DNA from: Procambarus clarkii
Lineage: Eukaryota; Arthropoda; Malacostraca; Decapoda; Cambaridae
DNA: 64,000 bases
NCBI RefSeq assembly: GCF_040958095.1
Contig: NC_091208.1
Span: 6,231,193-6,295,192, forward strand
Direction: 5' to 3'
This document shows, piece after piece, positions 5,413 to 61,386 of the stretch; the first letter of the stretch is position 1; each line of letters begins with the position of its first letter. A program made the position numbers and the translations under genes. A model generated the notes under the pieces. It made no database searches. It was given only the letters and a program-made list of their open reading frames with translations, and was not told the origin of the DNA.

Positions 5413-5463
5413 ATTGGTTAATGGGGCAGCAACTGCAGAGAAATTTTTACAATACCGCCTATA

Positions 5464-6016: not shown

Positions 6017-6021
6017 CCAGT

Positions 6022-7634: not shown

Positions 7635-7639
7635 CCAGT

Positions 7640-8130
7640 TTCCCCCTGGTTTTCTTACTAGCAAACAAGAACTCCAAGAACTTTGGCTTGGACGTATGAA
7701 GTTATATTGAAGTAGAAAATCCACTTCCTGTTGTATGGTTCTTCTTTTTTCGGGATTCACTCAGTAGGAATGCAGTCGAATTGGAGTGTCGTCAAGCAGT
7801 TGGATGTTGTGGGTGATGAGAGGAGTCTGAATTGGTACCTCCCCAAACAGATTAGAATGTGTGTCTAGCAAGACCTGTAACTCATCACGCTGCTCATCCT
7901 GCAAATGACATAGCAACTCCTTCCCTACGGAATTAGAACTGAAGTAAAGAATATTAATATCTTTTCCCTCATTGCAGTCCTCCTCAGGTGGTAATTCCTC
8001 CTGACCAAAACAAGCCACAACAACTGGCCCACAATAGGCCTTCAGCCGATTTGAATGTGCAATCATTTGCTGTCCTGAAATATTTGGGTTAGATACTTTA
8101 TATGATATATTTCCCAACTTTTCTACAATA
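7640..8130 (-). pseudogene. Pol: integrase C-terminus joined to RT N-terminus
   Basis: The key evidence for domain order. Reading the minus strand from 8130: the integrase tail (YNIVEKLGN, then HSNRLKAY, the usual H.NRLK.Y end of Gypsy integrases) is followed in the same open frame by FGEVPIQTP...HNIQLLDDTPIRLHSY, the standard lead-in to Gypsy RT, then EKRRTIQQEVDFLL and LLVRKPGG up to the LTR. One stop lies at about 7758. IN and RT are thus fused in one frame, IN first. Confidence 0.85.
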
Positions 8131-8137
8131 TTGTAGG

Positions 8138-8207
8138 GCCTCGTAGCCTGGTGGATAGCGCGCAGGACTCGTAATTCTGTGGCGCGGGTTCGATTCCCGC
8201 ACGAGGC
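8138..8207 (+). other. tRNA-Thr(CGT)-like head of the SINE
   Basis: Acceptor stem GCCTCGT pairs fully with ACGAGGC; the T stem GCGGG/CCCGC encloses TTCGATT; the anticodon stem CAGGA/TTCTG encloses CTCGTAA, anticodon CGT. The D arm does not pair well and the SINE body follows without a terminator, so this is treated as a SINE head rather than a working tRNA gene. Confidence 0.7.
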
Positions 8208-8388
8208 AGAAACAAATGGGCAATGTTTCTTTCACCCTGAATGCCCCTGTTACCTAGCAGTAAATAGGTACCTGGGAGTTAGTCAGCTGTCACGGGCTGC
8301 TTCCTGGGGGTGGAGGCCTGGTCGAGGACCGGGCCGCGGGGACACTAAAAAAGCCCCGAAATCATCTCAAGATAACCTCAAGATAACC
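8138..8388 (+). mobile_element. tRNA-Thr-headed SINE inside integrase
   Basis: A 70-nt tRNA-like head is followed by a body with CTGTTACCTAGCAGTAAATA, GTCACGGGCTGCTTCCTGGG and a CTCAAGATAACCTCAAGATAA tail. The same body occurs at 39895 and 51729 with different heads. It splits the integrase between HKVEG and PYNIV. Non-coding; Pol III promoted in living members. Confidence 0.9.
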
Positions 8389-9407
8389 CTCAACCTTATG
8401 AGACATGGAAGTCCCTAGTCGAGGTTTCAACACCAACACTAGATCACCACTTGCAAACGACCTGAGCTTTGTCTTAAATTTCAAATCATACCATTCCTTC
8501 ATCACTTGCTGCGCCTTCCCAAGATGTTTCATAGCCAGCTCCTTAGTGCGACACAACTTACTCTTGACATCACTCAGGTAACGACCACTCTGATGAACAG
8601 AGACATCACCAAGCATTTTCTCCTGAAGCATCTTCAAGGGACCTCTTACCTGGTGTCCGAACACGAGATCAAATGGAGAACAACCAAGTGACTCTTGTAA
8701 TCCCTCTCTGGCTGCGAATAGAACAAAAGGAAGATTCTCGTCCCAATGACGTGGATATATCTCCCCTGTAGTCTTCAGCATCTACTTCAACGTTTGGTGA
8801 AAATGCTCAATTCCACCTTGACTTTGTGGATCGTAAGGACTAGTAAATTTATGTAGAATCCCATGAGATTCACAAAAGGTTCTGAAAACCCTAGAACAAA
8901 AGTTTCCCCCATTATCAGCCTGGATAACACGTGGCATACCAAACAAGGGGAAAAATAGCTCCAGACACTTTATAAGGTTCTTAGCCTTAGTATTCCTCAC
9001 AGCATACGCCTCATGAAATCTCGTAGTCATGCACGTCAAGGTGAACAAAAACATATTACCTGATTTAGTTCTGGATAAATGACCTACACAATCCATAACT
9101 ACATGTGAAATAGATTCTTCTGGAACTATAATAGGTTGTAATGGTGCTCTTGACACAGATTGGTTGGGGTTTCCTACAGTTTGACATGCTACACAATTAT
9201 GGCAATATCTGACCACATCTTTCTTCAATTTAGGTCAGTAAAAATACAGATCTTATGATACATGCTAGTAATACCTTGGTGACCTCCCATAGGGTCATCA
9301 TGTGCAGCCTGCAAGACATGCTCGCGATAATCACTGGGGACAACAAGCTGGGTCCTCGTCTCACAATCATCTGATGAGGGAGCTCCCTTGGGTCTCCATC
9401 TTCTCAT
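8389..9407 (-). pseudogene. Pol: integrase (HHCC and DDE core)
   Basis: From the 5' side: a zinc-binding block with YREHVLQAAHDDPMGGHQG (H...H) and YCHNCVACQ (CxxC), then the catalytic core with HVVMDCVGHL (first D), QADNGGNF (second D) and SQGGIEHFHQTLK (E), then the PRHWDENLPF segment. Stops at about 9225 and 8780 break the frame. The integrase inserts LTR-element cDNA into the host genome. It lies directly after protease, not after RNase H. Confidence 0.9.
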
Positions 9408-9792
9408 CAGAAGTCGATCCTTGAAAAAGAAACTCGTCCCGTCCTACAATGCATCTACATTAGCAGTGGCCTCAGAACTACACTCAGGTAAACTGAGATC
9501 AGTACTTTGCAATGAACTCAAGATTAAGGACTCAAACTCGGAAGCGAGCGGGCATGTACCTGGCAACCTGACATCCTTTCCTAACCCCTGGCTGGTCAGA
9601 ATAAAATGGGTTCATGGCTACTACAGTCTCCCTCTCGTCTACTGGTTCAGAAGTGGAGACAAGCGGGCAAGTCACAGTTAAATCAGCCTCCTCACCTTCA
9701 CCTTCCTTGTGGCTAGGGCTCGGCAGGGCTTGCACTAATGACTTACTCTCATCATCCAACTGAGTCATGAATGAATCCACAAGATCCACCTC

Positions 9793-10734
9793 TCACTCCT
9801 TGTCTGAAGGGGTTCTGGTTTTGGAAACATCCACCTTGGTTGTAACAGGATTACTATCACCCATTTTTCCCATCGACCTGGTCACAACACATGCAGGGTA
9901 TATAATACCATCCTCTGCATCCTGCTGAGCCAGTACTCTGTTAGGGTTAAGCAACATTATTGGACATTCGGTCCCTTCAACCTTACGGTTCCCAAAATCA
10001 TTCCCTAGAATAATGTCCACTCCTGGAATGGGCAACTGTTTACTCACACCAACAGTACAACACCCAGAAGTAAAAGTTGAATCAAGATTAATTTGGATTA
10101 AAGACACTTGTTGCACACTACCTTCAATACCTTGTCTTAATATAACCCCACCAACATCCCTTGTATCAACATCAGTAAATACATTTTGAGAAATGAGAGA
10201 CTGTGAAGCTCCAGCATCACCGAGTAATTGCACAGACTTACACTTTCCATCTCTACACAATAATGTACCTTTGGACATATATGGTTTAAATTCAGTGATC
10301 CAATTGGGATTGACTGTAATACATTGAGAATTATTTATTTGTAACCCTCTACTCATGATGAGACCAGGTCGTCTTAATTCAGGGTGCAAACTAAAACATG
10401 AATTTATCACATGCCCTCTCCTCTTACAATGAGTGCAAAATTTGCCAGTGGTCACACCAGTTGAACCCACTGCAGGTCTAGAATTCACATTACTGGGAAT
10501 TTGTATCCCCATCAATGGTTTCTCAAGTTTAGATTTGGTAAGAGAAGAGTTCATGGGAGTAGCTAGGGAATTAGTACTGGGTTTGTTATGATAAACATGA
10601 TTATGAATATTATAATTTACTTTACTGTAAAAATTATGTGACTGGGCTTTAAATGGTGCCCTTGTAAGCAATTCATGCTCATCAGTGAGCTTGGAGAGCT
10701 GATAGATATCAGTAGTGCACTTTTGTTCAGCCAT
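9793..10734 (-). pseudogene. Gag end (zinc knuckle) and aspartic protease
   Basis: A CCHC knuckle CTHCKRRGHVINSC is followed about 70 residues on by LLGDAGASQSLIS, the retropepsin active site (usual DTGAS, here DAGAS), then GVDIILGNDF, typical of the protease flap/end region. The linker to integrase (9792-9408) is acidic and holds PSPSHKEGEGEE-like low-complexity sequence. The T-to-A change next to the catalytic Asp and surrounding stops indicate decay. Confidence 0.8.
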
Positions 10735-11719
10735 GAAAGTAGATAATTTATCTGGGAGACAAGATAAAACTTCTTCAGTAATGAGAAGATTTTTAAGAGT
10801 TGCAAACTCTATAATAGAAAGTTATTTCAGCCATCTCTCACAATAATTTACCTTCAACCTAGTAAAATCAGCAATGGTTTGTTCAGGTGCCCCTCATTAA
10901 ACTACGGCATATTTGTCGATGTGCCTCAGGATTTAACTGATATGCATTTAAGATGCTCTTTTTTAAAAATAGATAGTCAAAGCTATTTGCATCAGATAGT
11001 GATATGAATACCTCCTGACTCTTTCCCCTGAATTGACTTTGCATTATGGCCACCCATTGGTCCATAGGCCAGTCCATACTGACTGCAATCTTTGAAAAAT
11101 GAGAGAAGAAAACCTCAGGGTCTTCCTCATTAAAATTAGGCAACTCGACATATTTATTTATCCTAGATTGAGGGTTGGTACTGTTGCTAGTATTACCATG
11201 TCCAGCTGCAATTCTCTGTGCCTCAACTCTATTAATATCCACTGCCACCTGTCGTTTTATTTATAATTGTTTGGTTTGTTCATCTGCTTGCTGCTTCTTA
11301 GCTTCCACTAACTGTAACTGAGCTGGAAGTCTAGCATTCTGTGCCTCAAATTCTACTTGTTGAGTAGAATTTGCTCAATAAATTTGTTCCTCTAACTCTA
11401 ATTGCCTCTGTTGTTTTTGAGCCTCTAGCCTAGCGAATTCAAGCTGTGTTTCTAAATCAAGACGCTTTAATGCTAACTGCTCACTTTTCCCTTCAGTTAG
11501 TTCATCAAAAATCTCTTCCCCTAGATGACCATCTTCCACTAAATGAGTAACTATCACTTTCACTATCTGTCCTTTAACCATTTTGTTACTGGCTGGGAAC
11601 TCTAGTTTACCTGCCATCCAAATCAAAGCAGACTCTGTTAGGTTTTTAATCCCTTCAAAGTTAGGCTTTGACAGCAATAAATCTACTTGGTTCTCAATGA
11701 TTAACACATGGCACTTCAC
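10735..11719 (-). pseudogene. Gag (N-terminal and capsid-like part)
   Basis: Starts around MKCHVLIIENQVDLL, has a long Gln/Glu-rich helical stretch (LETQLEFARLEAQKQQ...), then PNFNEEDPEVFFSHFSKIA, the P.F.e.D.E.FF..FE pattern of Gypsy capsid domains. Two stops lie between 11374 and 11249 and a frameshift after 10883. The same domain plan is seen in the unrelated gag at 62156. Confidence 0.75.
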
Positions 11720-11739
11720 TAATCTACATAAATAAAAGT

Positions 11740-11876
11740 GTACTTGAATCGACTTGAGAATGGTCCAGGACGGACCGAAACGTCGTCGTCACTTCAACTT
11801 CTAGTGTGTGGTCTGGTCAACATACTTCAGCCACGTTATTGTTACTCATCGCCTGCATAAAAATGTATATATTTGT
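11740..11876 (+). repeat. Dispersed repeat with GGTCCAGGACGGACC motif
   Basis: Carries AATGGTCCAGGACGGACCGA, AACGTCGTCG, GTGTGTGGTCTGGTCAAC and ends near CTCATCGCCTGCATAAA. Other copies or parts: 32470-32560, 35123-35243 (inverted) and 37462-37545. Non-coding; probably the 3' end of a retroposon family. Confidence 0.75.
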
Positions 11877-13220: not shown

Positions 13221-13222
<2 letters not shown>

Positions 13223-14199
13223 CTGAAAACTCACACCCCAGAAGTGACTCGAACCCATACTCCCAGGAGCAACGCAACTGGTATGTACAAGACGCCTTAA
13301 TCCACTTGACCATCACGACCGGACAAAATGAGGTGAGAGCCGAGGCTATTTGAACCACCCCACCGCCGGCACTCGGATAGTAATCTTGGGCATAGCATTT
13401 TACCAAATCACCTCATTCTTTGGGGCACACGTGAGAAACATAAATGCGAACAAGCCTGAATGGTCCCCAGGACAATATGCAACTGAAAACTCACACCCCA
13501 GAAGTGACTCGAACCCATACTCCCAGGAGCAACGCAACTGGTATGTACAAGACGCCTTAATCCACTTGACCATCACGACCGGACAGAATGAGGTGATAGC
13601 CGAGGCTATTTGAACCACCCCACTGCCGGCACTCGGATAGTAATCTTGGGCATAGCATTTTACCAAATCACCTCATTCTTTGGGGCACACGTGAGGAACA
13701 CAAATGCGAACAATCCTGAATGGTCCCCAGGACAATATGCAACTGAAAACTCACACCCCAGAAGTGACTCGAACCCATACTCCCAGGAGCAATGCAACTG
13801 GTATGTACAAGACGCCTTAATCCACTTGACCATCACGACCGGACAAAATGAGGTGATAGCCGAGGCTATTTGAACCACCCCACCGCCGGCACTCGGATAG
13901 TAATCTTGGGCATAGCATTTTACCAAATCACCTCATTCTTTGGGGGACACGTGAGGAACACAAATGTGAACAAGCCTGAATGGTCCCCAGGACAATATGC
14001 AACTGAAAACTCACACCCCAGAAGTGACTCGAACCCATACTCCCAGGAGCAACGCAACTGGTATGTACAAGACGCCTTAATCCACTTGACCATCACGACC
14101 GGACATAATGAGGTGATAGCCGAGGCTATTTGAACCACCCCACCGCCGGCACTCGGATAGTAATCTTGGGCATAGCATTTTACCAAATCACCTCATTCT
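13221..14199. repeat. 260-bp tRNA-derived satellite, inverted, about 3.8 units
   Basis: Units repeat at 13350, 13610, 13870 and 14130 (260 bp) and are the reverse complement of the array at 1-617. Each carries the inverse of the B-box-like and A-box-like stretches. Units differ by a few percent. Both arrays end in TA tracts. Confidence 0.88.
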
Positions 14200-14207
14200 T
14201 ATATATA

Positions 14208-22616: not shown

Positions 22617-23325
22617 AGCCCTCTCAGCACGCCTTCTCATCAATGGAGCCAGGTCCTCTCAGTAGGCTTGTTGGCCACTGCAAACCTGGCCACAGAGTCA
22701 ACCAACCATTTAAACTCAAGTGTTTGGCTCCTAATAATTAAACATACGATAAAGTAAGGGACAGCGAGAGTGATGACGCCGCCTCTCACTTTTCCTCTCA
22801 CCACATCTCTCAGTACGTGGATGTTACGAGCAGAGTAAAATTCCCGGATTTTTTTAATAACGTTTTAATTTTCTCTTCATTTTCCGCTTTACCCATGTTT
22901 TTCCTTTCATTAATTACTTCTCCTTTTCTCCTCTCTTTCCCATTCCTGACCTTCCTCCTAATTCCCAACCTTCCTTCCTAATTGGATAAAAATCCACTCC
23001 CTTCACATCAATTTTGCATTTCTCATCTTTTTTTCCCTCCTATCCCAACAATTTCCTCTTCCATTTCTAGCTCTGTCCCCTATATATTCCTTTCCCATAC
23101 CCATCCCATTCCTTCCCTTCCGTTCCCTCCCCTAGAGGCTGGATAGAAAAACACGACTGTGCATATTTTCCGATAAATTTGGATCACTGAACGAAACGGA
23201 AGATTGTATCATAGTCAAATAATATTTCAAGTACGTTTTCTTCAATTAAAAATTGAAATAAAAATGTATTTCAGGTTATTTCTGTTTTACGATTTCTTCT
23301 GTGTTGCTTTCCGGCCGTCACCAAC
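22617..23325. other. 3' flank of the lectin gene, pyrimidine-rich
   Basis: C/T-rich plus strand from 22850. The stretch from about 22960 to 23270 is related to 56030-56440 (shared TCCC.CAACAATTTC, GGATCACTGA, AATATTTCAAG.ACGTTTTCTT). This shows that the duplication of the lectin end includes the 3' flank. No gene seen. Confidence 0.6.
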
Positions 23326-23669
23326 AGACTACTGGGTAGCCATACACAGTGGGGTCACCAGGAGACTACTGGGAAACCATACACAGTGGGGTCACCAGCA
23401 GACTACTGGGAAACCATACACAGTGGGGTCACCAGCAGACTACTGGGTAGCCATACACAGTGGGGTCACCAGGAGACTACTGGGAAACCATACACAATGG
23501 GGTCACCAGGAGACTACTGGGAAACCATACACAGTGGGGTCACCAGCAGACTACTGGGAAACCATACACAGTGGGGTCACCAGCAGACTGCTGGGAAACC
23601 ATACACAGTGGGGTCACCAGCAGACTACTGGGTAGCCATACACAGTGGGGTCACCAGCAGACTAGCAGG
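23326..23669. repeat. 37-bp array, distal part (about 9 units)
   Basis: Unit GTGGGGTCACCAGCAGACTA plus CTGGG(A/T)A(A/G)CCATACACA; period 37 bp. On the minus strand the unit corresponds to the last codons of the lectin (around the final two cysteines). It was one array with 24698-25170 before an LTR entered. Confidence 0.92.
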
Positions 23670-24692: not shown

Positions 24693-24697
24693 GCAGG

Positions 24698-25170
24698 AAC
24701 CATGCACAGTGGGGTCACCAGCAGACTACTGGGAAGCTGTACACAGTGGGTTCACCAGCAGACTACTGGGGAGCCATACACAGTGGGTTCACCAGCAGAC
24801 TACTGGGAAGCTGTACACAGTGGGGTCACCAGCAGACTACTGGGGAGCCATACACAGTGGGGTCACCAGCAGACTACTGGGAAGCTGTACACAGTGGGGT
24901 CACCAGCAGACTACTGGGGAGCCATACACAGTGGGGTCACCAGCAGACTACTGGAAAGCTGTACACAGTGGGGTCACCAGCAGACTACTGGGTAGCCATA
25001 CACAGTGGGGTCACCAGCAGACTACTGGGTAGCCATACACAGTGGGGTCACCAGCAGACTAGCAGGAACCATGCACAGTGGGTTCACCAGCAGACTACAG
25101 GGTAGTCATACACAGTGGGGTCACCAGCAGACTAAAGGGGGACGCCGCACACAGTGGGTTCACCAGCAGA
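24698..25170. repeat. 37-bp array, proximal part (about 12-13 units)
   Basis: Same unit as at 23326, with alternating sub-types (CTGGGAAGCTGTACACA and CTGGGGAGCCATACACA) that suggest a 74-bp higher-order unit between 24720 and 24990. It begins at the lectin stop codon. Confidence 0.92.
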
Positions 25171-25325
25171 CTACAGGGTAGTCATACACAGTGGGGTCAT
25201 CAGCAGACTACAGGAGGCGTCACGGAAGTAGTGGTAACCCTGAGCGTCCAGCAGGATACAGTTCTCGGCTGTACCACCGTCTGGCTCCACCACGTTATTT
25301 CTCACTGATCCCCAGAAGGGCGACC
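25171..25325 (-). CDS. Two-CTLD C-type lectin, exon 6 (end of CTLD2)
   Basis: Terminal exon, 155 nt. The acceptor is CTATCTCTTCAG before GGTCGCCC, phase 1. It encodes PFWGSVRNNVVEPDGGTAEN, then CILLDAQGYHYFRDASC and LLMTPLCM, stop TAG at 25173-25171. EPD occupies the position of the calcium/sugar-binding EPN/QPD motif (mannose-type side), FRD that of WND, and the three cysteines are the last three of a canonical CTLD. Such lectins are secreted immune receptors in crustaceans that bind microbial sugars. The same exon recurs without a coding change in the second copy (57976-58130). The codons around the final Cys pair have seeded the 37-bp array. Confidence 0.88.
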
Positions 25326-26218: not shown

Positions 26219-26308
26219 CCATAGTGACGGGCTTTCCGTCCGTCCACGTCCACACGCCCTCCTTCGCCGCGTCGGAGCCACCCAGCCAGAAGGAGTGACC
26301 AGCGATCC
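26219..26308 (-). CDS. Two-CTLD C-type lectin, exon 5 (middle of CTLD2)
   Basis: 90 nt, phase 1 on both sides: acceptor TGTGTGTTGCAG before GGATC, donor ATGG before GTGGGT. It encodes AGHSFWLGGSDAAKEG and WTWTDGKPVTM, the FW.G.SD and W.W.DG core of a CTLD. In CTLD1 (exon 3) the same region and the end of the domain are in one exon, so the intron after this exon is a CTLD2-specific gain or a CTLD1 loss. Its 3' splice site is the unit of the 30-bp array that begins at the very next base. Confidence 0.88.
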
Positions 26309-27450
26309 CTGCAACACACAGGTAGTGATCAGTGATCCCTGCAACACACAGGTAGTGATCAGTGATCCCTGCAACACACAGGTGGTGATCAGTGATCCCT
26401 GCAACACACAGGTAGTGATCAGTGATCCCTGCAACACACAGGTAGTGATCAGTGATCCCTGCAACACACAGGTAGTGATCAGTGATCCCTGCAACACACA
26501 GGTAGTGATCAGTGATCCCTGCAACACGCAGGTAGTGATCAGTGATCCCTGCAACACACAGGTAGTGATCAGTAATCCCTGCAACACACAGGTAGTGATC
26601 AGTGATCCCTGCAACACACAGGTAGTGATCAGTGATCCCTGCAACACACAGGTAGTGGTTAACGATCCCTGCAACACACAGGTAGTGGTTAACGATCCCT
26701 GCAACACACAGGTAGTGATCAGTGATCCCTGCAACATACAGGTAGTGGTTAGTGATCCCTGCAACACACAGGTAGTGGTTAGTGATCCCTGCAACACACA
26801 GGTGGTGATCAGTGATCCCTGCAACACACAGGTAGTGATCAGTGATCCCTGCAACACACAGGTAGTGATCAGTGATCCCTGCAACACACAGGTAGTGATC
26901 AGTGATCCCTGCAACACACAGGTAGTGATCAGTGATCCCTGCAACACGCAGGTAGTGATCAGTGATCCCTGCAACACACAGGTAGTGATCAGTAATCCCT
27001 GCAACACACAGGTAGTGATCAGTGATCCCTGCAACACACAGGTAGTGATCAGTGATCCCTGCAACACACAGGTAGTGGTTAACGATCCCTGCAACACACA
27101 GGTAGTGGTTAACGATCCCTGCAACACACAGGTAGTGATCAGTGATCCCTGCAACATACAGGTAGTGGTTAGTGATCCCTGCAACACACAGGTAGTGGTT
27201 AGTGATCCCTGCAACACACAGGTAGTGATCAGTGATCCCTGCAACATACAGGTAGTGGTTAGTGATCCCTGCAACACACAGGTAGTGATCAGTGATCCCT
27301 GCAACACACAGGTAGTGATCAGTGATCCCTGCAACACACAGGTAGTGGTTAGTGATCTCTGCAACACACAGGTAATGGTTAGTGATCCCTGCAACACACA
27401 GGTAATGGTTAGTGATCCCTGCAACACACAGGTATTGGTTAGTTATCACT
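26309..27450. repeat. 30-bp array of lectin 3' splice sites (about 38 units)
   Basis: Plus-strand unit GATCCCTGCAACACACAGGT plus AGTGATCAGT; on the lectin strand each unit reads CTACCTGTGTGTTGCAG then GGATC, the real acceptor of exon 5 and its first bases. The array is open on the minus strand as repeated GITDHYLCVA decapeptides in the lectin frame. Variants (AGTGGTTAACGATC, CAACATACA, AGTAATCC) recur at 420 bp, giving a 14-unit higher-order repeat (26521-26760 matches 26941-27180). Confidence 0.95.
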
Positions 27451-27587: not shown

Positions 27588-27912
27588 TCTTAATGAAATG
27601 AAGGTAAAAGTTGATGTATATATCCCCAGTAGCCTTACCTTCCTGGTGGAGGTAGAAGTATATATATCCAGTAGTCTTACCTTCCAGGTGGAGGTAGAGG
27701 TATATATCCCCAGTAGCCTTACCTTCCTGGTGGAGGTAGAAGTATATATATCCAGTAGTCTTACCTTCCAGGTGGAGGTAGAGGTATATATCCCCAGTAG
27801 CCTTACCTTCCTGGTGGAGGTAGAAGTATATATATCCAGTAGTCTTACCTTTTAGGTGGAGGTAGAGGTATATATCCCCAGTAGCCTTACCGTCCTGGTG
27901 GAGGTAGAGGTA
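27588..27912. repeat. 42-bp array of lectin 5' splice sites (7 donors)
   Basis: On the minus strand each unit carries CACC(A/T)GGAAG then GTAAG(G/A), copies of the exon-4 end and its donor. Exon-final G positions are 27891, 27849, 27807, 27765, 27723, 27681 and 27639, exactly 42 bp apart. Two sub-types alternate (84-bp higher-order unit). The array continues at 31333-31445 beyond an inserted LINE. Confidence 0.93.
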
Positions 27913-28329
27913 CCCCTAACGCTCCCCAAGTGGAACATTAAGAAGCTTGATAAGAAAAAAATGGGCTGATATTGTCCATCTCCCAGATACAGACGATGTA
28001 GACCCTATCACGTAACTGTCCACAATCACCTCGGCCATAAATTCTGCAGCCATCCAAATGTTCAAGAAAACTTCAGGACATAGGTCCAACAACCCACTTA
28101 ACAAGGTGGAATGCCGAATGTGCATGAGCAGTCGCGTTACGCCGACGAACCTTACAAAAACGAAGACGTCAAACCTCCTTACGAAACTGGGTCAATCTCC
28201 GGCGGGCCACAGCAGCAGCCAAAAAAAAACATACTGTCAACAAAGCGAGCATCATGGACAAACTTCTGTTATAGCTTCACACCCACCACGCTACATTCAA
28301 AAGCCTGGGCTACATTTGGGAATGTTGGG

Positions 28330-29340
28330 TGATCTTTAACAGCATTAAGGGTCGCCCAACATTCCCTTCGTTTCCCCTTATGATCAACGGTTCACTCAGT
28401 CAAACAACTCAGGAGCGTGCAAATGTTCTTGCTGAATATCTTAAAGTTACTCTCTTAACACCCTTCCTTCATGCCCAAGAACTATCCGTCAGACAAGAAA
28501 CTAACCGTGCTATGCCGCTACCCATGCTCGGCGTCGACAACATGTACACCTTAAGCGAGCTATAATTAGCCTTAACCCGCCTACCTCCTGGCAAGGCACC
28601 TGGAGAGGATGGAATTCCATATGAAGTTATCAAATATCTTCCATCGACTGCACACAGCACCCTTCTAAACTATTACAACCTATACTGGACTCACGGAAAT
28701 ATTCCCTTACAATGACAGACCAGTATTATTCTTCCATTCCTTAAACCAGAAAAGATACATTCCAACCTGCGTCATACAGACCTATCTCCTTACTATCATG
28801 CCTCAGTAAAATCATGGAAAGGCTGGTACATACTCGCCTCCAATAGTACCTTGAGTATAATAATATTATACCGTCACTCCAAGCTGGATTTCGACCTCAA
28901 TGCTCCACACTTGGTCAAATACTCTGCCTTGAACAAAAAATCCGCACATCTCTCAGAAGCAGTAAATTTTGTCTTGTTCTCTACCTAGACGTCAAAGACG
29001 CTTTTGATAGCATTTCTCATACTTGCCTCTTGGCAAAGTTTGCACGTTTAGGCGTACAGGGAAGATTACCTCTATGACTACAGTCCTATCTTACGAACAG
29101 GACCTCTAAAGTCTATGTACAAGGCGAGTTTTCCGATGGCATTCCAATACAAACGGTTGTCTCGCAAGGCTCCATGCTAAGCCCAACCCTTTTTGCTCCG
29201 TTCTTAGCAGATTTGCCTAACACCCATTCTGTTCACCTCTCGGCGTACGCCAAAGACATAACATTGTATTATTCAGACAATGCCCTACCTAATACAGTCT
29301 CAACAATGCAAACAGCACTTGACCACCTCATAGACAGAAC
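28330..29340 (+). pseudogene. LINE reverse transcriptase, decayed
   Basis: Fragments in several frames: LPPGKAPGEDGIPYEVIKYLP (28580-28640) and LLNYYNLYWTHGNIP, TSIILPFLKPEK, then LDVKDAFDSISH-like (28985-29020) and a SQGSMLSPTLF-like motif near 29160. These are blocks of Jockey/I-type RT in order. The catalytic YADD is not clear (AYAKDITLYY around 29245). Confidence 0.7.
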
Positions 29341-30138
29341 ACAATAATGAGGCCTTCAAGTTAGTACTACCAAAACCTGTTATCAGATTTTCACTAAAAA
29401 AAGACTTGTTCATCTACCCACTCTCACAATACACAACACTCCCATCTAACACGTACGAGGACATAAATACCTTGGCATGCACTTAGACTCACCCTTACTT
29501 ATCTGGAAGCACACATTCAACACCTTAAACAGAAGACAAAACTGACTCGCCATTCTATCATTTAATGGAAGCCCTCACTGGCACCACCTGGGGAGCACAC
29601 CATAAAAATCTTGCTCCGTTTCTATACAACCCACATATGCAGCCAACTAGACTATTGTTACCAAGCATGTGCGTCGTTTGCGCCAACTAACCTACAAAGC
29701 TAGAGGTCATTCAAAAAATGCCAAGCGACTTATATGTGGTGCAATGCGTTCCACTCCTATGCTCGGACTTTACGGGGAAAGGGCCTCACAAGACTAGCCA
29801 CCAAACGACACATAATGTGTGCCAACTATCACTGCTCGCCAGACACACCCAAACAGATCAAAATTTAACCCAACAGTTAACCCCCATATCCCCCGCTTCC
29901 CAACCAATTACTCGCAACTTTTCCTCACATGGGCTACAAATAACCTCAATATAGACCTCTCTCTCTACTCAAAAATTCTGAAACCCAACATACTGTTCCC
30001 CATATTCCACCTTGGCTCTATACAACTCCAAATACATCAATACAACTCGAAGACAACATTCCAAAGTCTGCACCAAACTCAGCTATAGCCTCAGTCTTTG
30101 TCTCAAGAAAGTGACAAATAGTTGGCACTGTCTCAACA

Positions 30139-30600
30139 ATGAAAAATTGCTACCCAAATACCACAGCGATTTATACAGATGGATCTGGCATCATCATGAA
30201 CAACGTACCCTCGGTCACTAGCGCTGTATGGATACCGGAATACCATCTCAAGCAGGGATGGCAGTTACCAAACCAACTATCTATTTTTACAGCTGAATTA
30301 TATGCCTTATATCAAGCTCTCCAAATAATCGTAACATTACCAGTTGGGATATATACAATCTGCAGTGACTCCAAGAGTGCGATTCAAGCAATTATGTACT
30401 CTTCAACAATGTGCAAGGAGTTTGTTTACCCATGCCTTCAACTTCTTCATGAACATTGAACGGTTATGACACCTCTATCCAATGGGTCCCAGCGCATTGT
30501 GGTATTCTCCACAATGAACTAACAGATCAACTAGCCAAAGCAATGCACAACACGCCTCACATTACCCGTCATACAATTTCCCATGTTGCACGTAAAGGAG
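30139..30600 (+). pseudogene. LINE RNase H domain
   Basis: IYTDGSGI (Asp 1), FTAELYALYQAL (Glu), ICSDSKSAIQAI (Asp 2), then after a stop at 30457 IQWVPAHCGILHNELTDQLAK (His/Asp end). All four catalytic positions are visible. This domain marks I-like LINE lineages. Confidence 0.85.
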
Positions 30601-30736
30601 CCTTCAAAAATACAATTCCCAAGATTTTGCGACGAAATGGAAAACGTCATGCTCACCTTTGTAATATGGGTCCATTAAAAAGAAATGGGAAACTTGGAAA
30701 CATGTCAGATATAAAAGCAGAGAAATTGATATAGCG

Positions 30737-31036
30737 ATGACCAGATTAAGGCTGGGACACACCAAACTGGCAGCACACAGCTCTAAGTACAGAACAATCA
30801 TCAACGAACTCTGCATCCTATGTCAGCTTCCTGAAACAATCGAACACTATCTCCTTCACTGCTTCCGACATCATAGTGCCAGAGTAAATTTCAAACAAGT
30901 AATTATTGCACTTAAAATACCCTTTACCATCGAGCATATATTAGGAGGAGGTGACCACTCGTTACAGGAAAAATACCAAATAGTCAAAGCACTGGCTAAA
31001 TATCTCCAGTCGACCAACAAATTGGGTCACATCTGA
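30737..31036 (+). pseudogene. LINE C-terminal CCHC region
   Basis: MTRLRLGHTKLAAHS then CILCQLPETIEHYLLHC, the C..C....(T/E)..H.L..C motif at the end of Jockey/I-type LINE ORF2. The rest to 31036 has no known domain. Confidence 0.8.
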
Positions 31037-31332
31037 CCCGTGCCACATTTATACCTGGCGCCACCAACAGCTAAACACAGAAAACAAATGTCTCGTCACA
31101 GCACCATGGATCAGCTGACACCATAAACGCAACATACCACCCTACGGTGCGGCAATTCTCCCTCTATCATGCACCTTTGTTTTAGTCCCCACTCCTATAT
31201 CTACAGCACAACGCAGCAAGCACCTTTGAAACTCTTATCATCCTCAACATAAACGCCTCTCCCTACATCTGTACTAGTGCAGTCATCGATATGACAAACC
31301 CTTCATGCAAACTGCACCTACTATCAAGAAGA

Positions 31333-31445
31333 AGAGGTATATTCATCCCCAGTAGTCTTACCTTCCTGGTAGATGTAGAGGTATATATTCCCGGTAACCT
31401 TACCTTCCTGGTGGAGGTAGAGGTATATATCCCCAGTAGCATTAC
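31333..31445. repeat. 42-bp donor array, exon-proximal part (2 extra donors)
   Basis: Downstream of the exon-4 donor (exon-final G at 31446) further donors stand at 31404 and 31362, 42 bp apart, with GTAAGG and GTAAGA, which fit the consensus better than the first (GTAATG). Read-through adds 14 residues per unit (NATGDIYLYLHQEG type) in frame. Confidence 0.9.
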
Positions 31446-31640
31446 CTTCCTTGTGGAGGTAGAGATATATAGCTCTGAGCTGCTCGATGTCAGTGATGGC
31501 GGCCAGCTCCCCGGACAATCCGTGACAAGCCTGACGGGCGTCCGCCCACGTCTCCTCCGCCCACGTCATGAACGCCAGACACAGGCCGTTCACACTGACG
31601 AAGAAGGGCGGGCAGTTCAGCTCCTCGGGCGTCACTGGTG
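31446..31640 (-). CDS. Two-CTLD C-type lectin, exon 4 (start of CTLD2)
   Basis: 195 nt, phase 1 on both sides. Acceptor TATTTCTTCACATCAG before CACCAGTG; donor GAAG before GTAATG. It encodes TPVTPEELNCPPFFVSVNG, CLAFMTWAEETWADARQACHG and LSGELAAITDIEQLRAIYLYLHKEG, i.e. the first three cysteines and the W.(D/E)AR..C..L.GELA..T helix region of a CTLD. A damaged paralogue lies at 61191-61386. The donor region is tandemly repeated, so the exon's 3' end may vary by multiples of 14 residues. Confidence 0.9.
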
Positions 31641-31998
31641 CTGATGTGAAGAAATAGTAGCCAACAATTGTCAGTTTATATTATATAACTCATCCGTGTT
31701 ACTGCTCAATGTTTATTTTCTCAAACATGAAGTAATAGCCAGCCTGGCAACTAAAGTACATGAATTATACACAAAGAATTCACAATAACGTGATGCATTA
31801 ATGCAAATATCTTTGGAGCAGAACGGTGGGATGGTCAGTGTCCTGGTGCATGGGTTACGATGTGTATCTGGACGACCCAGGATGATGGTTCCATCCCTAC
31901 CTTCCTGATTCAAAGATTTTTAAATGTATTATATTTTAAAAATTGGTAGAGTACAAAAGTTCACTGGGTAAAGTACTGGAAAATTCAAAGGGTTTTAC
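31641..31998 (-). other. Lectin intron 3
   Basis: 358 bp between donor A/GTAAAA (31999/31998) and the CATCAG acceptor (31641). Joining the phases makes a threonine codon. No other feature seen. Confidence 0.75.
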
Positions 31999-32253
31999 TT
32001 GTTTGAACAAGTTGTTTTTGTTCACACAGCGGAAACCATTGGGTGTTGCATTGTATATCGTCAAAGTTGAACAACAATTTCTTGTTCATCACTAAGCAGT
32101 GTTGAGAACGATTATAATTATCCGGCTGCTGGCCTGACAGCCTCGCCATCCAGAAGGGCGTTCCCATGGGAACTGCCAGACCGGAGGACGTCCGCCAGTC
32201 TCCCTCCGTTTCTTGGTCAGACCCGTCCAACCAGAAGTTTTTTGCGCCCAGAC
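31999..32253 (-). CDS. Two-CTLD C-type lectin, exon 3 (second half of CTLD1)
   Basis: 255 nt, phase 1 on both sides. Acceptor ATACCTCCACAG before GTCTGG; donor ACAA before GTAAAA. It encodes GAKNFWLDGSDQETEGDW, then TPFWMARLSGQQPDNYNRSQ, CLVMNKKLLFNFDDIQC and WFPLCEQ: the FW.DGSD core, the galactose-type QPD motif, FDD at the WND place, and the last three cysteines. The linker QKQLVQT leads to the second CTLD. If the splice were not used, the frame stops a few codons later (KTL, stop). Confidence 0.88.
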
Positions 32254-32325
32254 CTGTGGAGGTATACACAGTCAGACTTGTGGAGGTACACACACTCAAA
32301 CCTACAGGAGTACACACATGAGAGT
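32254..32325. repeat. 24-bp acceptor array next to exon 3 (3 units)
   Basis: On the minus strand the acceptor context TACCTCCACAG/GTCTG recurs upstream as ...CCACAAG/TCTG and CTGTAG/GTTTG. Longer stretches of the same unit lie at 33915-34040 and 34655-34985 within the same intron. Confidence 0.85.
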
Positions 32326-33914: not shown

Positions 33915-34040
33915 GAGGTAACTGTGGAGGTAGATACAATCAGACCTTTGGAGGTACACACACTTAGACCTTTGGAGGTACACACACTCAGACCTGTGGA
34001 GGTACACACACTCAGACCTGTGGAGGTACACGCACTGCTT
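33915..34040. repeat. 24-bp acceptor-type array, detached part
   Basis: About five units GTACACACACTCAGACCTGT plus GGAG between two CR1 pieces. Confidence 0.88.
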
Positions 34041-34654: not shown

Positions 34655-34985
34655 AGGTACACACACTTAGACCTGTGGAGGTACACACACTTAGACCTGT
34701 GGAGGTACACACACTCAGACCTGTGGAGGTACACACACTCAGACCCGTGGAGGTACACACACTCAGACCTGTGGAGGTACACACACTCAGACCTGTGGAG
34801 GTATACACACTCAGACCTGTTGAGGTACACACACTCAGACCTTTAGAGGCACACACACTCAGACCTTTGGAGGTACACACACTCAGACCTGTGGAGGTAC
34901 ACACACTCGGACCTGTGGAGGTACACACATTCAGACCTGTGGAGGTACACACACTCAGATCTGTAGAGTTACACACACACACACA
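34655..34985. repeat. 24-bp acceptor-type array, longest part (about 14 units) plus (AC)n
   Basis: Regular 24-bp units; minus-strand reading TACCTCCACAG/GTCTGAGTGTGTG equals the exon-3 acceptor. It ends in an AC dinucleotide tract (34972-34991) that grades into a CR1 piece. Confidence 0.93.
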
Positions 34986-43320: not shown

Positions 43321-44117
43321 AGGTACAAGGCTAGTAGACGAGGCATAAAGACCTAGACCTCACTTCCAGGAAGACACTAATAGGTAAGTACACTCAGACC
43401 TGTGGAGGAACACATTTTACACTAGTAAATGTTTATTGACATGTATTAAACTGCATTCTTTATTATATTTTAATTGACACAAGTATATGACTTACTAGGG
43501 CATATGTGACGCATCGTCATGTGTCAGTGACTGTTTTCCAGGAATTAACCCCCTCGGTCAGCCAAGCGACAGTGTCTGCCAGGTATACACAGTTACTGGC
43601 AGACTACCACTCCAGCACCCTACACCATGCAGACCCTCACACGCCACTAGAGATATGTTTCCAACATCTTATCTCCAGCAGGAACAGGTAGGTCATAATA
43701 TAATCCTTCCCTCACCACCACACAACGTGCCTTGTGGTGTAAGTTCTCCTAATTCGTTTTACATTCAAAATTTCTTGTTATTCCGCACTATTTAATGTTC
43801 TAGCACGGAGAAGACAGCCCTAAAATTATCCCCTCTTTGTGCTCCCTTGGTCACAGCAACAACAAAGGCGACACTCACAAACCACACACCCCATATAATA
43901 CACTTACAGATGAAATTGAAAGACTTAACATGAATCTGCTATTGGGCCCCAACACAAAAAACGAAATCAACCGAGAATGGCGGCATGAGTCCTCGCTCCA
44001 GTCTCAATGTGGGGCGCCTCCTCTGGTCCTCAGGGACATGCTAGACTGCCTGAGATGCTTTGTTACTTTCAGTCACCATAAAATAAGTCAGTACATGAAG
44101 GTGTTAAGGCTGCTCAC
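43321..44117. other. Part of lectin intron 2, no gene
   Basis: A single copy of the 24-bp acceptor-type unit (ACTCAGACCTGTGGAGGAACA) stands at 43389-43410. A 61-codon frame at 43506 shows no domain. Confidence 0.5.
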
Positions 44118-44351
44118 CGTTGTCATTAATGTAGTCGATGATGTTCTTCAGGCGGGTGGCTGTGAGGACGGCCGCCAGCTCCTCGTCCAGCGAGTGACAC
44201 ATCTGTCTAGCTTCTGTGAAGGTCACCTCTGCGAATGTGGCGAAGTAGAGGCACTGGTCGCCGACAGGCAGGAAGGGCATTGAGCACCCGCCAGGGGTGG
44301 TGACAGCACCCAGCTGGACCCCAGGTCTCTGGTCATTCCCGTACCCGCTCG
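44118..44351 (-). CDS. Two-CTLD C-type lectin, exon 2 (start of CTLD1)
   Basis: 234 nt, phase 1 on both sides. Acceptor CATTAACAG before CGAGCGGG (weak pyrimidine tract), donor CAACG before GTGAGC. It encodes the mature N-terminus SGYGNDQRPGVQLGAV, then GGCSMPFLPVGDQCLYFATF, TEARQMCHSLDEELAAVL and IIDYINDN: first three cysteines and the EAR..C.SL..ELA helix of a CTLD. Joined to exon 1 the junction codon is Ala, a plausible signal-peptide end. An upstream ATG in the same frame (44439) would lie in the intron. Confidence 0.87.
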
Positions 44352-46467
44352 CTGTTAATGATGTACGTTGGTCATTGATCAATTCATTTGAAAGTCGCTG
44401 CAAACACTTGGAGAGCATTTGGGAAACACTATACCACATAGTTATTATTCAAACTATACAAGTTGTTTGAAATATCTTAAGCATACTTACCCAGAGCCAA
44501 CACCAGCCAACCATGTGTCTATGCCTCACCAACACACAAAAGTTGCAGAGTGTGTAGATTCCTTGCCACACAAAATATGATATCTCAAGCAAAATGTATG
44601 ATACAGCAGAGGGCCAAGTCAGAAATCTATGATGGTTGAGCCAATAATTTCCAGAGTACTAACAGATTAAGTGGTTCCTATGGGACACTAAATTGTGAAG
44701 AAGGAAAGATGTAGTAGTTTGAAGGTGGAAACCAGAGGGATAAGAGGTAAAGTAAGAGAGTGGAAATTTCCCGGCGAAATGTGCACTGTGCATTATGTAT
44801 GATTATCCATATCTCAGGTTGGATTACCATCGTTTTGGGCGTCCCCTGGATAACAAAGCATATTAGACCATCCTGCATATTATTGAACTTAGGTTCTGTT
44901 AAATTTATTATCCTGTGTTGAATTCCAAAGGCCAGTCACCTAACTGATCATGAGCCCTTTTACGAACATAAATCATGCATTAGACAACATGAAAAACGAC
45001 GAAAACAGACAACATATATTTTCTCCCTGTTTATAGTATTGTTAGCAATTTATAATTAGAGAGATTAGCTGGCAGTAGTATACGTAGGCCACAACAAGTG
45101 AACCAATACGGCTGCTCAGCGTCCAACTGATAGGGGGACCTCCCTGGATCAACGACTTCCTTCCGGCAGTCACTATTAGATTGAATTTAGATTTATATTG
45201 TATTTCACAATATTTTCTCTCATAAATAATTCTGGATATAATGATGGTATCATCTTACGTGAGATATTGGTGTTGTGATGCCTTGTAACTGCTCTCATCT
45301 ATTCCCTCGTATTACCCACCAACATTATCATGGTAATAATATATAAATGATGAAAGGTACGGGTTTTCACTTGTCTCTGGTTGAAATGAGAGGCGGACAC
45401 GACTTTATGAGATAAATCTAAACTCACGTTGTAAGGAATGACTAACCATCTAATTACTAAGGATAAAATACCTTTACTCCTTTCACTGTATCCATATTTC
45501 GCTCTCAGTAGATAAACGACATATGAGATTAAGAAACAAGTAGTGTATTGTGAAGACTAGTACTAACAAACAGCAGCTCCCCTATGACTCGGAAATTTCT
45601 CCATTGCTCAAACAATTATGTATTAGCGATAAGACCAACCATTAATGTATAATGACTTACTGTAAATATATAGCTCTTGATATAGAACATTCTCTGTAAC
45701 TAGCTGACATTATAATTATAAGGTGTGAAGGATAGATGTAATTCTTAATGTAATAATCTCTGTTGAGGTCGGACAAAGACCTTTTGTGCTCTCAGTAACC
45801 CATTTTTGCGCTACCACTCACAGGATGAGTATGGGGTGCACAATAAACTAGCCTCCTCCGGCGGCAACAATCAATCAAATCTGGTTGAAGTATGAGGTTG
45901 ACACGACTTAATTTAGAAGTCGCGAAGTTTTAAATAGCAGCAGAAGAATATTTAAACTGCGTAATGACGATGTCGCTACTTGAAGCGGTCTTGATCTCTG
46001 TTTTGGCATGTAATGACCTCAAAGCTGCCTCCACTTCCGGTCCTGGAGAAAACTCACGTATATTATTTACTTGTATCGGTCTAAAGCTTGTATCGGTCTA
46101 AAAATTCGAATTAACGATGTTAATTCAGTCAATTTTTTTAAGAATTACTGAGTGTCTTATAGTTATATAATTTATCAGAAATAATAGAAGACCAATTTAG
46201 TTTACTGAGTGTTGTGATGGGTGACGTAGTAGTCAGGTGGCTTCCGCCAGCCCATAGATGGCGTGGCTCTGTTTAAGTACGCATTTATTAACTACGACTT
46301 AATTTGTCAATTAAACCTGAACAGAAAGTAGATTTCATTACGGTTCATAGAAATTTTTTACAATTAAAAGTAATGGTAACAAATATTTCCCACAATTAAT
46401 ACATACGTTCTCAGCAGGTGTGTACGTACCCAATTGGTGAGTGATTACCTGTGAGGTGTGTACTTAC
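44352..46467 (-). other. Lectin intron 1
   Basis: GT at 46467, AG at 44352. It holds a LINE-like 3' tail at about 45790-45880 (ATGAGTATGGGGTGCACAAT, also near 54390 with changes), and otherwise AT-rich sequence with nothing recognised. Confidence 0.6.
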
Positions 46468-46513
46468 CCAGCAGGTGTGTGCACATGAGGGTGAGGGCAG
46501 CGAGTCGCCACAT
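46468..46513 (-). CDS. Two-CTLD C-type lectin, exon 1 (signal peptide)
   Basis: ATG at 46513; 15 codons and one base: MWRLAALTLMCTHLL then G, before the strong donor GTAAGT (46467-46462). Arg after the start and a Leu/Ala-rich core make a short secretion signal. Phase 1 agrees with exon 2. Chosen because it is the only Met-hydrophobic-GT cassette I can see upstream of exon 2 on this strand; the summed coding length of all six exons is an exact multiple of three (975 nt). Confidence 0.75.
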
Positions 46514-46603
46514 CTTAGGGACGGCGGTCCCAGTTGGTCCACACAACGAGACGTTCAGAGCAGCAGTTGGGCCACAGAACAACCTTAGGACAAGAACATA
46601 AGA

Positions 46604-56760: not shown

Positions 56761-57464
56761 AAGTATTATACTATCCTCTTTGTACCAACACCAAGGAGGA
56801 TTCCAGTAAACTGTGCCAAGTGTAGTGCAGTTTCTTACTGCACAACAACCCCCGCAGACTGATGATCTCTCTTGCATTCGCTCCGTCTCGCAACTGTAGA
56901 ATAGTTATCTCGTGAGATCATGCTAATAATACTGTCTCCGGGGCATACTGGCTCTCTACCTCATAATATCTTACAATATATACACAATGTCCGGGGTCTT
57001 GCACTCTGCCTCCAAGATCTTGTGAAAGGCAGAATACAGTACCTCTTACAGGCCTTGTTACAAGCTACGTGTGTGAACCATCTAGGTGCGAGCTACGAGC
57101 GGACTGTAGAATGACGGTCATGGTTCTCCCTTCTCTTTACCTGTGTCAGAATATACACACTCGTAGGAGAACATGAACTCCAGCTCCTCCGACAAGCTTT
57201 GTCACATACATGCCTTTTCTCTACACACTCCATAGAATGTTGTGTAAAAGTAAATTAAAAATCTTAGCTATGTTAGTAAAATTCAACGGTAATGGTTGAA
57301 ATTAAACTGGAGTGTACATGGAAACGCTTTTAATATAAATCTTGCAGGTGATAAATTTGAAGCCTCAAAATCAAGGAAATTAGCATCAAAATTCATATAT
57401 GACTTAACGAGGCTACAACTGTACTTCAAAGCTGATAACTCTCTGGCTACTGAGGAACCATTCA

Positions 57465-57975
57465 GAGCCGGGTCACCAGCAGACTACAGGTCACTAACAT
57501 ACAGTGGGGTCACCAGCAGACTACAGTGAAGCAATGCATAGTTGGGTCACCAGCAGACTACAGTGAAGCAATACATAATTGGGTCACGAGCAGACTACAG
57601 GGTAGTCATTCACAGTGGGGTAACCAGCAGACTGTACAGGGAAGCCAAACACAGTGTGGTCACCAGCAGACTGTACAGGGAAGCCATACACAGTGGGGGT
57701 GACCAGCAGACTGTAATGGGGAGCTATACACAGTGGGGTCACCAGCAGACTGTACTGGGGAGCCATACACAGTGGGGTCACCAGCAGACTACTGGGGAGC
57801 CATACACAGTGGGGTCATCAGCAGACTATAGGATAGTCCTACACATTGGGGTCACCAGCAGACTAAAGGGGGGCGCTGCACACAATGGGGTCACCAGCAG
57901 ACTACTGGGAAGCTGTACACAGTGGGGTCACCAGCAGACTACTGGGGAGCCATACACAGTGGGTTCACCAGCAGA
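57465..57975. repeat. 37-bp array of the lectin pseudogene (about 14 units)
   Basis: Same unit as at 24698-25170, with more length variation (CTGTACAGGGAAGCC, CTAAAGGGGGGCGC). Starts at the stop codon of exon 6'. Confidence 0.92.
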
Positions 57976-58130
57976 CTACAGGGTAGTCATACACAGTGGG
58001 GTCATCAGCAGACTACAGGAGGCGTCACGGAAGTAGTGGTAACCCTGAGCGTCCAGCAGGATACAGTTCTCGGCTGTACCACCGTCTGGCTCCACCACGT
58101 TATTTCTCACTGATCCCCAGAAGGGCGACC
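57976..58130 (-). pseudogene. Lectin pseudogene copy, exon 6' (end of CTLD2)
   Basis: 155 nt; as far as I can read it has the same sequence as 25171-25325, with acceptor TCTCTCTTCAG before GGTCGCCC, EPD, FRD and the three cysteines, stop TAG at 57978-57976. The exon itself is intact; it is called pseudogene because exons 4' and 5' are damaged. The near-identity suggests recent duplication or gene conversion. Confidence 0.85.
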
Positions 58131-60065: not shown

Positions 60066-60155
60066 CCATAAGATAGGGCTTTCCGTCCGTCCACGTCCAC
60101 ACGCCCTCCTTGACCGCGTCGGAGCCACCCAGCCAGAAGGAGAGACCAGCGATCC
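60066..60155 (-). pseudogene. Lectin pseudogene copy, exon 5'
   Basis: 90 nt matching exon 5: acceptor TGTGTGTTGCAG before GGATC, then AGLSFWLGGSDAVKEG and WTWTDGKPYLM. The donor is changed: GTGGGT in the intact copy reads ATGCGT here (60065-60060), so the GT is lost and normal splicing to exon 6' is not expected. Confidence 0.82.
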
Positions 60156-60985
60156 CTGCAACACACAGGTAGTGGTTAGTGATCCCTGCAACACACAGGT
60201 AGTGATCAGTGATCCCTGCAACACACAGGTAGTGATCAGTGATCCCTGCAACACACAGGTAGTGATCAGTGATCCCTGCAACAGACAGGTAGTGGTTAGT
60301 GATCCCTGCAACACACAGGTAGTGATCAGTGATCCCTGCAACAGACAGGTAGTGGTTAGTGATCCCTGCAACAGACAGGTAGTTGTTAGTGATCCCTGCA
60401 ACACACAGGTAGTGGTTAGTGATCCCTGCAACACACAGGTAGTGGTTAGTGATCCCTGCAACAGACAGGTAATGGTTAGTGATCCCTGCAATAGACAGGT
60501 AGTGATCAGTGATCCCTGCAACACACAGGTAGTGGTTAGTGATCCCTACAACACACAGGTAGTGGTTAATGATCCCTGCAACACACAGGTAGTGGTTAAT
60601 GATCCCTGCAACACACAGGTAATGGTTAGTGATCCCTGCAACAGACAGGTAATGGTTAGTGATCCCTGCAACAGACTGGTAGTGGTTAGTGATCCCTGCA
60701 ACACACGGGAAGTGACCAGCGATCCCTGCAACACACAGGTAGTGGTTAATGATCCCTGCAACACACAGGTAGTGGTTAATGATCCCTGCAACACACAGGT
60801 AGTGGTTAATGATCCCTGCAACACACAGGTAGTGGTTAATGATCCCTGCAATACACAGGTAGTGACCAGCGATCCCTGCAACACACAGGTAGTAGTTAAT
60901 GATCCCTGCAACACACAGACAGTAATCATTGATACCTGCAGCACACAGTCAGTGATTGTTGATCCATGCAACACACATATAGTGA
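60156..60985. repeat. 30-bp acceptor array of the lectin pseudogene (about 27-28 units)
   Basis: Same unit as 26309-27450, but with its own variants (CAACAGACAGG in about nine units, absent from the other array), showing independent homogenisation. Open as GITDHYLCVA-type decapeptides on the lectin strand over long stretches. Confidence 0.94.
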
Positions 60986-61190: not shown

Positions 61191-61386
61191 CTTCCTTGTA
61201 GAGGTAGAGGTATATAGCTCTGAGCTGCTCGATTTCAGTGATGGCGGCCAGCTCCCCGGACAATCCGTGACAAGCGTGACGGGCGTCCGCCCACGTCATG
61301 AACGCTCATGTTATGAACGACAGACACAGGGCCGCCCACTCTAACGAAGAAGGGCGGACAGTCAAGCTCCTCGGACGTCGCTGTTG
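61191..61386 (-). pseudogene. Lectin pseudogene copy, exon 4'
   Basis: 196 nt. Acceptor TTTCTTCACATCAG before CAACAGCG; TSEELDCPPFFVRVGG, then an extra C shifts the frame; downstream MTWADAR.ACHGLSGELAAI and TEIEQLRAIYLYLYKEG are recognisable in another frame after a TGA. The ETWADAR segment is rearranged. Clear pseudo-exon of CTLD2. Confidence 0.88.

Follow-up and report, generated by a model that had tools for sequence, protein, structure and literature searches.

Why is the 3′ end of one intron in a crayfish lectin gene repeated dozens of times, and do the copies serve to lengthen the protein? We analyzed a 64,000-nt stretch of the Procambarus clarkii genome (the window), in which exon C2 of a C-type lectin gene, gene A, is preceded by a long array of 30-bp units. 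Along the minus strand, the exon order of gene A established by tblastn and by its junctions is signal-like exon, N1, C1, N2, C2, and C3 (table 1). Exons N2, C2, and C3 joined match Pfam Lectin_C (PF00059) with E = 6e-14 and 53.1 bits, above the curated cut-off of 22.6, and exon C1 alone scores 21.7 bits, just below it. A protein search gave three matches, two of them from Cherax quadricarinatus (63% and 76% identical). In Cherax, protein P0001 corresponds to an N1-like half joined to C2/C3-like exons and P0002 to N2 joined to C2; the N and C junctions of gene A (46519-25171, minus strand) share the same phase in the order N1-C1-N2-C2-C3. Mix-and-match splicing of lectin halves may thus be possible.

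Table 1. Exons, arrays, and insert of the two lectin gene copies in the window
Feature	Position	Strand	Basis
Gene A, signal-peptide-like exon piece	46469..46519	minus	tblastn with N-terminus of Cherax protein P0001, 76% over 17 aa
Gene A, exon N1, first half of C-type lectin domain	44117..44364, 5′ end approximate	minus	tblastn, junction
Gene A, 24-bp acceptor array of C1, distal piece, 13.5 copies	34655..34978	minus	TRF
Gene A, 24-bp acceptor array of C1, middle piece, 4.8 copies	33922..34036	minus	TRF
Gene A, 24-bp acceptor array of C1, exon-proximal piece, 2.9 copies	32249..32318	minus	TRF, junction
Gene A, exon C1, second lectin-domain half with stop	31986..32253	minus	tblastn
Gene A, exon N2, first lectin-domain half	31446..31640, acceptor placed by eye	minus	tblastn, junction
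Gene A, 42-bp N2 donor array, exon-proximal piece, 3.3 copies	31333..31471	minus	TRF
Gene A, 3.4-kb insert splitting donor array	27913..31332		by eye resembles reverse-transcriptase element
Gene A, 42-bp N2 donor array, distal piece, 7.1 copies	27616..27912	minus	TRF
Gene A, 30-bp acceptor array of exon C2	26294..27525	minus	TRF and site counts
Gene A, exon C2	26219..26308	minus	tblastn, sequence
Gene A, exon C3 with stop codon	25171..25325	minus	tblastn
Gene A, 37-bp array starting in last coding bases of C3, 13.9 copies	24696..25211	minus	TRF
Gene A, further 37-bp array about 1 kb downstream, 9.4 copies	23317..23664	minus	TRF
Gene B, exon N2, broken (internal stop, frame change)	61191..61384, 5′ end approximate	minus	tblastn
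Gene B, 30-bp acceptor array, 27.8 copies	60151..60984	minus	TRF
Gene B, exon C2	60066..60155	minus	tblastn
Gene B, exon C3	57970..58130, 3′ end approximate	minus	tblastn
Gene B, 37-bp array over coding-sequence end	57447..58019	minus	TRF

The array reported by the first-pass annotation is real, and the end given there, 27450, is slightly short: TRF extends it to 27525, with a period of 30, 41 copies, 92% match, and a score of 2001. Exon C2 starts at 26308 on the minus (sense) strand with the sequence GGATCGCTGGTCACTCC, and units of the type GGATCACTGATCACTACCTGTGTGTTGCAG directly precede it on that strand, so that the array does begin at the exon edge as had been proposed. Each unit comprises approximately 16 nt resembling the exon start and the last 14 nt of the intron. 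Among 40 acceptor-like sites, 38 are in register and in frame (37 copies and the exon's own), in agreement with the amplification of about 38-fold first claimed; the two out of register lie at the far end of the array. AG is kept at all 40 sites, and 21 of them share the 23-mer that surrounds the exon's own acceptor. Because each of the 37 exact-length units carries a branch-point-like yUnAy motif and AG (in the commonest unit, the branch A is positioned 20 nt before the end of AG), each represents by motif a complete 3′ splice site. This bears out the interpretation of the unit as a copy of the acceptor of a lectin exon. A 20-base core of the unit occurs 66 times in the window with up to three mismatches, with 0 occurrences expected: 39 in this array and 27 in the corresponding array of a second gene copy, gene B. 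The lectin frame, said to encode one GITDHYLCVA per unit, is indeed open across 38 decapeptide slots, but only 21 have exactly this sequence, the others being variants. An identical sequence of 420 bp is present at 26369-26788 and again at 26789-27208, which points to recent growth of the array.

Gene A has arrays at four of its edges, with units of 24 bp at the C1 acceptor, 42 bp at the N2 donor, 30 bp at the C2 acceptor, and 37 bp where the coding sequence ends. The donor of exon N1, AACG/GTGAGC, is without array. The exon-proximal 24-bp units are of the type GTCTGAGTGTGTGTACCTCCACAG and are unrelated to the 30-bp unit, though the two acceptors are homologous; AG is kept at 12 of the 13 sites of the distal 24-bp piece. 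The 42-bp unit combines about 27 nt of exon end with 15 nt of intron start, the donor of exon N2 itself being GAAG/GTAATG, and TACCTCT is found on both sides of the insert that splits this array. In gene B, the broken exon N2 is followed by a few decayed donor units, and despite this lesion 27 acceptor units are retained, with AG in 27 of the 28 C2 acceptor sites. In the window, arrays cover 6 of 16 junction positions against a mean of 2.33 (P = 0.05), and 4 of 13 junctions have an array end no more than 30 bp away, against a mean of 0.81 (P = 0.012). As the DNA of the window is rich in arrays, junction cover exceeds chance only modestly. More telling is the presence of the predicted junction itself within the units.

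Coding-sequence edges are amplified as well as splice junctions. Arrays that start in the last coding bases and run 3′, with units of 74 or 37 bp, are found at the ends of genes A and B, at lectin locus L035 (1676-2453, 74-bp array), and at L014 (5816-6916). At L012 (5300-6022), a C1-like exon start with a 24-bp acceptor array is fused directly to an N2-like exon end, as if by deletion between neighboring lectin exons. The window also contains 260-bp tandem repeats flanked by long TA runs (25-618 and 13221-14200), minus-strand ORFs resembling by eye LTR-retrotransposon gag-pol (5020-11788), and a 33-bp coding-type repeat within an ORF rich in E, A, Q, and R (62474-62739).

A search of the genome (4.03 Gb, 2308 contigs) with the 30-bp unit identified paralogous loci on C55, C74, and elsewhere on C59. 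The N2-C2 intron measures about 136 nt in C74a, 152 nt in C74b, 1035 nt in gene B, 1345 nt in C59d, 5137 nt in gene A, and 8293 nt in C55. C74a represents a low-copy state, with one donor, two acceptors separated by 30 bp, and an altered frame in N2. C74b has three C2 acceptors, adjoining 25 sites of the 24-bp unit at the upstream exon C1, and this acceptor unit is repeated 38.9 times at L063, a further C74 locus. C59d harbors 30 donor sites (spacing mostly 41-49 nt) and 2 acceptor sites at C2, as well as 15 acceptor sites at the upstream exon C1 (spacing mostly 28 nt). At C55, 64 acceptor and 84 donor sites occupy the two ends of one intron; the C1 acceptor and the coding-sequence end of this locus are free of arrays. 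Units copied from the two ends of the intron itself account for 77 of 136 nt in C74a, 87 of 152 nt in C74b, 979 of 1035 nt in gene B, 1342 of 1345 nt in intron 4 of C59d, 1640 of 5137 nt in gene A (1640 of 1717 nt without the insert), and 5605 of 8293 nt in C55. GT is kept at 83 of 84 donors in C55 and 29 of 30 in C59d; AG is kept at 55 of the 64 C55 acceptor sites, CAT replacing CAG at the other 9. Across paralogues of this one assembly, copy number ranges from 2 to 64 C2 acceptor sites and from 1 to 84 donor sites.

In the assembled sequence, the units demonstrably span predicted junctions, nearly all of them keep AG or GT, their number varies greatly, and some introns are almost entirely composed of units. 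We consider it likely that these arrays are mirage-type minisatellites, that is, junction-spanning duplications grown in tandem, tolerated since their units rebuild the splice signal, and devoid of protein function. The seed would be a short duplication spanning an exon-intron junction, which would then grow by slippage or unequal exchange. With a splice signal in each unit, the intron would keep a working end at any copy number, and array growth would for this reason be tolerated and not stopped by selection on splicing. Mature mRNAs would mostly join the exon-proximal sites, and the array would have no protein function. Independent seeds are found at the donor of the distant lectin L042 (20 bp) and at donors of trypsin-family genes (31 bp in L078 and L111, 33 bp in L125, and 20 bp in L106). 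We count against this interpretation the unit sizes of 24, 30, and 42 bp, all multiples of three, the in-frame position of the 148 sites of C55 and of 12 of 12 sites in L125, and the modest enrichment at junctions of the window.

Mirage minisatellites were described in amphioxus as tandem repeats across exon-intron boundaries in Adh3, the globins BflGb6 and BflGb9, TnC, and PGBD5, with units of 10-72 bp in Adh3 and about 150-160 bp in the globins. According to the portions of these reports available to us, regular splicing is undisturbed, Adh3 shows somatic length variation, and sizes reach 3 and 6 units in two BflGb6 haplotypes and 3 × 108 bp in PGBD5 (PMC3087553, PMC3902484). Like them, the crayfish arrays have boundary-spanning units, many with intact AG or GT, affect both 5′ and 3′ boundaries, and are unstable in copy number, here between paralogues. 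Unlike the counts given for BflGb6 and PGBD5, up to 84 and 64 sites are present at the ends of one crayfish intron. The crayfish introns also differ from the amphioxus cases, as these portions present them, in consisting almost wholly of units and in belonging to a decapod and to two gene families. Relative to these accounts, what appears to be new is the occurrence in a decapod and in two unrelated gene families, the higher copy numbers, the arrays at both intron ends, and the introns built nearly wholly of units. We found no mirage-type case from arthropods in the openly licensed literature, screened mostly at listing level, and the available part of a report on earthworm metallothionein describes no junction-spanning units (PMC12783039). 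Two other systems are comparable, as far as the accessible portions of the reports describe them. In human segmental-duplication genes, variable internal tandem repeats with units of ~30 bp alter exon/intron structure and can activate cryptic splice sites; the search for them covered exons of young paralogues and had transcript support, whereas the crayfish unit is the junction itself, known from genome sequence (PMC2812944). In Drosophila, introns were gained where coding sequence containing a proto-splice site was duplicated in tandem. Both this process and the crayfish arrays involve local duplication carrying splice signals, but the former creates a new intron position whereas the latter enlarges an old intron whose position is kept (PMC2891723).

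Mirage-type growth is compatible with some unselected use of the inner copies, at a measurable level, that would produce a functionless ladder of transcripts. This is a real possibility, although it falls short of being probable. The inner sites are locally identical to the exon's own, and the exon-proximal donor of gene A, GTAATG, has a predicted pairing with U1 of -6.6 kcal/mol, compared with -10.0 kcal/mol for the array donor GTAAGG, which makes some use of inner donors plausible. It is disfavored by the amphioxus mirages, for which the available portions of the reports indicate no disturbed or aberrant mRNAs (PMC3087553, PMC3902484). From the genomic data, we regard as rather unlikely a broader scenario in which junctions were amplified repeatedly, some introns were rebuilt almost entirely from their own ends, and the spliceosome uses many of the locally identical sites, so that lectins would form a ladder in 10- and 14-residue steps set by array length.

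Mirage-type growth might also be combined with targeted seeding, splice junctions, and donors above all, starting arrays more often than other sequences, for example because of repeated AG-GT letters or a transcribed exon edge. We retain this idea tentatively and with some doubt. It would account for several amplified junctions in one gene, including a homologous acceptor with an unrelated unit. Other lectins argue against it: at an array cover of 17% of the loci, none of 23 other lectin loci (from 30 excised loci among 81 matches listed; masked letters in 2 of the 23, none within 200 nt on the acceptor side) has an array over the homologous acceptor, L035 being one of them. Among C84 relatives of the same exon layout, arrays are present at none of five N2-like donors and none of five C2-like acceptors. 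A general feature of lectin genes is ruled out by these 0 of 23 homologous acceptors and 0 of 10 C84 junctions. Ten additional lectin pieces, selected in most cases for their long open frames, revealed no new junction array and one of the known 24-bp kind (L063). In the distant lectin L042, an unrelated 20-bp unit provides 16 donor sites at the homologous donor, 15 of them with GT.

In a trypsin-family sample of 60 junctions, arrays cross 4 of 28 donors, the first 20 junctions being hand-picked (first 8 donors, including L078), one donor piece mostly masked, and the pieces short. L078 and L111, a paralogous pair on C37, have 31-bp donor arrays with CAG/GTGAGT at every site (9 of 9 and 10 of 10, respectively), L125 has a 33-bp array of 12 sites, and L106 a 20-bp array assigned by eye. 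The L125 unit (40-500) is almost entirely exonic and encodes the active-site motif TAAHC. None of the 32 trypsin acceptors is crossed by an array, although array cover on the acceptor side is 6.8%, and there is for this reason no hint of acceptor preference. We considered that donors might be amplified no more than other intron sequence and rejected it: the cover of 8.9% deeper in the 28 donor-side introns includes the four junction arrays themselves, and falls to 0.8% over the 24 pieces without them. The donor pieces contain 7 arrays, of which 4 begin at the junction (P = 0.012 in a rough placement model), or 3 of 6 with the C37 pair counted once (P = 0.047). Hardly any trypsin donor array lies off the junction, which plain neutral growth anywhere in an intron does not predict. 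These data, subject to the hand-picking of the first donors and the shortness of the pieces, hint that donors are preferred array seeds in this sample.

We consider improbable the proposal that the arrays are a protein-length device, the spliceosome using many copies to lengthen lectins in steps of 10 residues at acceptors and 14 at donors under selection, for example for immune diversity. In tandem acceptors of the NAGNAG type, transcripts show that both sites are used. Similarly, neighboring in-frame acceptors in the crayfish could add whole codons; unlike in the NAGNAG type, the step is 30 nt and the sites are predicted from sequence. The frame is in favor of such a device in gene A (38 of 40 sites), gene B (28 of 28 C2 acceptors), and C55 (64 of 64 acceptors and 84 of 84 donors), as are the identity of 21 gene A sites with the exon's own acceptor and the weak U1 pairing of its exon-proximal donor. 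In C55, the matched exons lie within open frames of 1213 and 735 codons, and that of N2, of 1213 codons, spans the donor array. However, frame is ignored elsewhere: the sites in frame with the exon-proximal one number 13 of 30 for C59d donors, 5 of 15 for C59d C1 acceptors, 3 of 25 for C74b C1 acceptors, 6 of 16 in L042, and, in three of the four trypsin arrays, 4 of 9 (L078), 4 of 10 (L111), and 4 of 7 (L106). Selection for multiples of three remains unproven, as versions of 28 bp and 41-49 bp exist in C59d and the units of L042, L078/L111, and L106 measure 20, 31, and 20 bp; the 33-bp unit of L125 fits.

For each of six arrays, we built a minimum spanning tree of the unit variants and classified the changes along it according to the lectin frame. 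Although independent events are few, silent changes account for 24 of 97 events against 28.7 expected, with no silent excess in any array, and 1 stop arose against 2.3 expected. This is not the residue-level constraint that inserted residues of a tandem acceptor would be expected to show. The branch point and AG are kept no better than under neutral expectation (P = 0.23, 0.29, and 0.67, again from few independent events), which rules out their conservation as a sign of use. An open frame is weak evidence of translation since the gene A array has one plus-strand frame without stop and another minus-strand frame with 2 stops, both in the outermost unit, and few stops are expected. A search of predicted proteins with the array ORF returned two Cherax lectins, matched through the exon; neither contains the decapeptide, and no protein with GITDHYLCVA was found among those searched, which is weak evidence of absence. 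The lack of silent excess, the disregard of frame, and this search all weigh against the lengthening by 10 residues per step suggested by the first-pass annotation, as do the array retained beside the broken N2 exon of gene B and the array-free C84 relatives. As far as these comparisons go, the array gives no sign of protein-level constraint. Least probable of all is an assembly artefact, with arrays collapsed or inflated by long-read errors, as the perfect 420-bp duplication could be a local mis-join but the 30-bp unit recurs at distinct loci, where counts differ and units have diverged, and unrelated arrays occur at other genes.

The paralogue series illustrates how an intron can grow out of its own two ends without any shift in position. 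The sample of a second gene family suggests that junction amplification recurs in this genome, and the annotation of such genomes may consequently be misled by false exons. With dozens of locally identical donors and acceptors, these loci offer a natural experiment on splice-site choice by the spliceosome.
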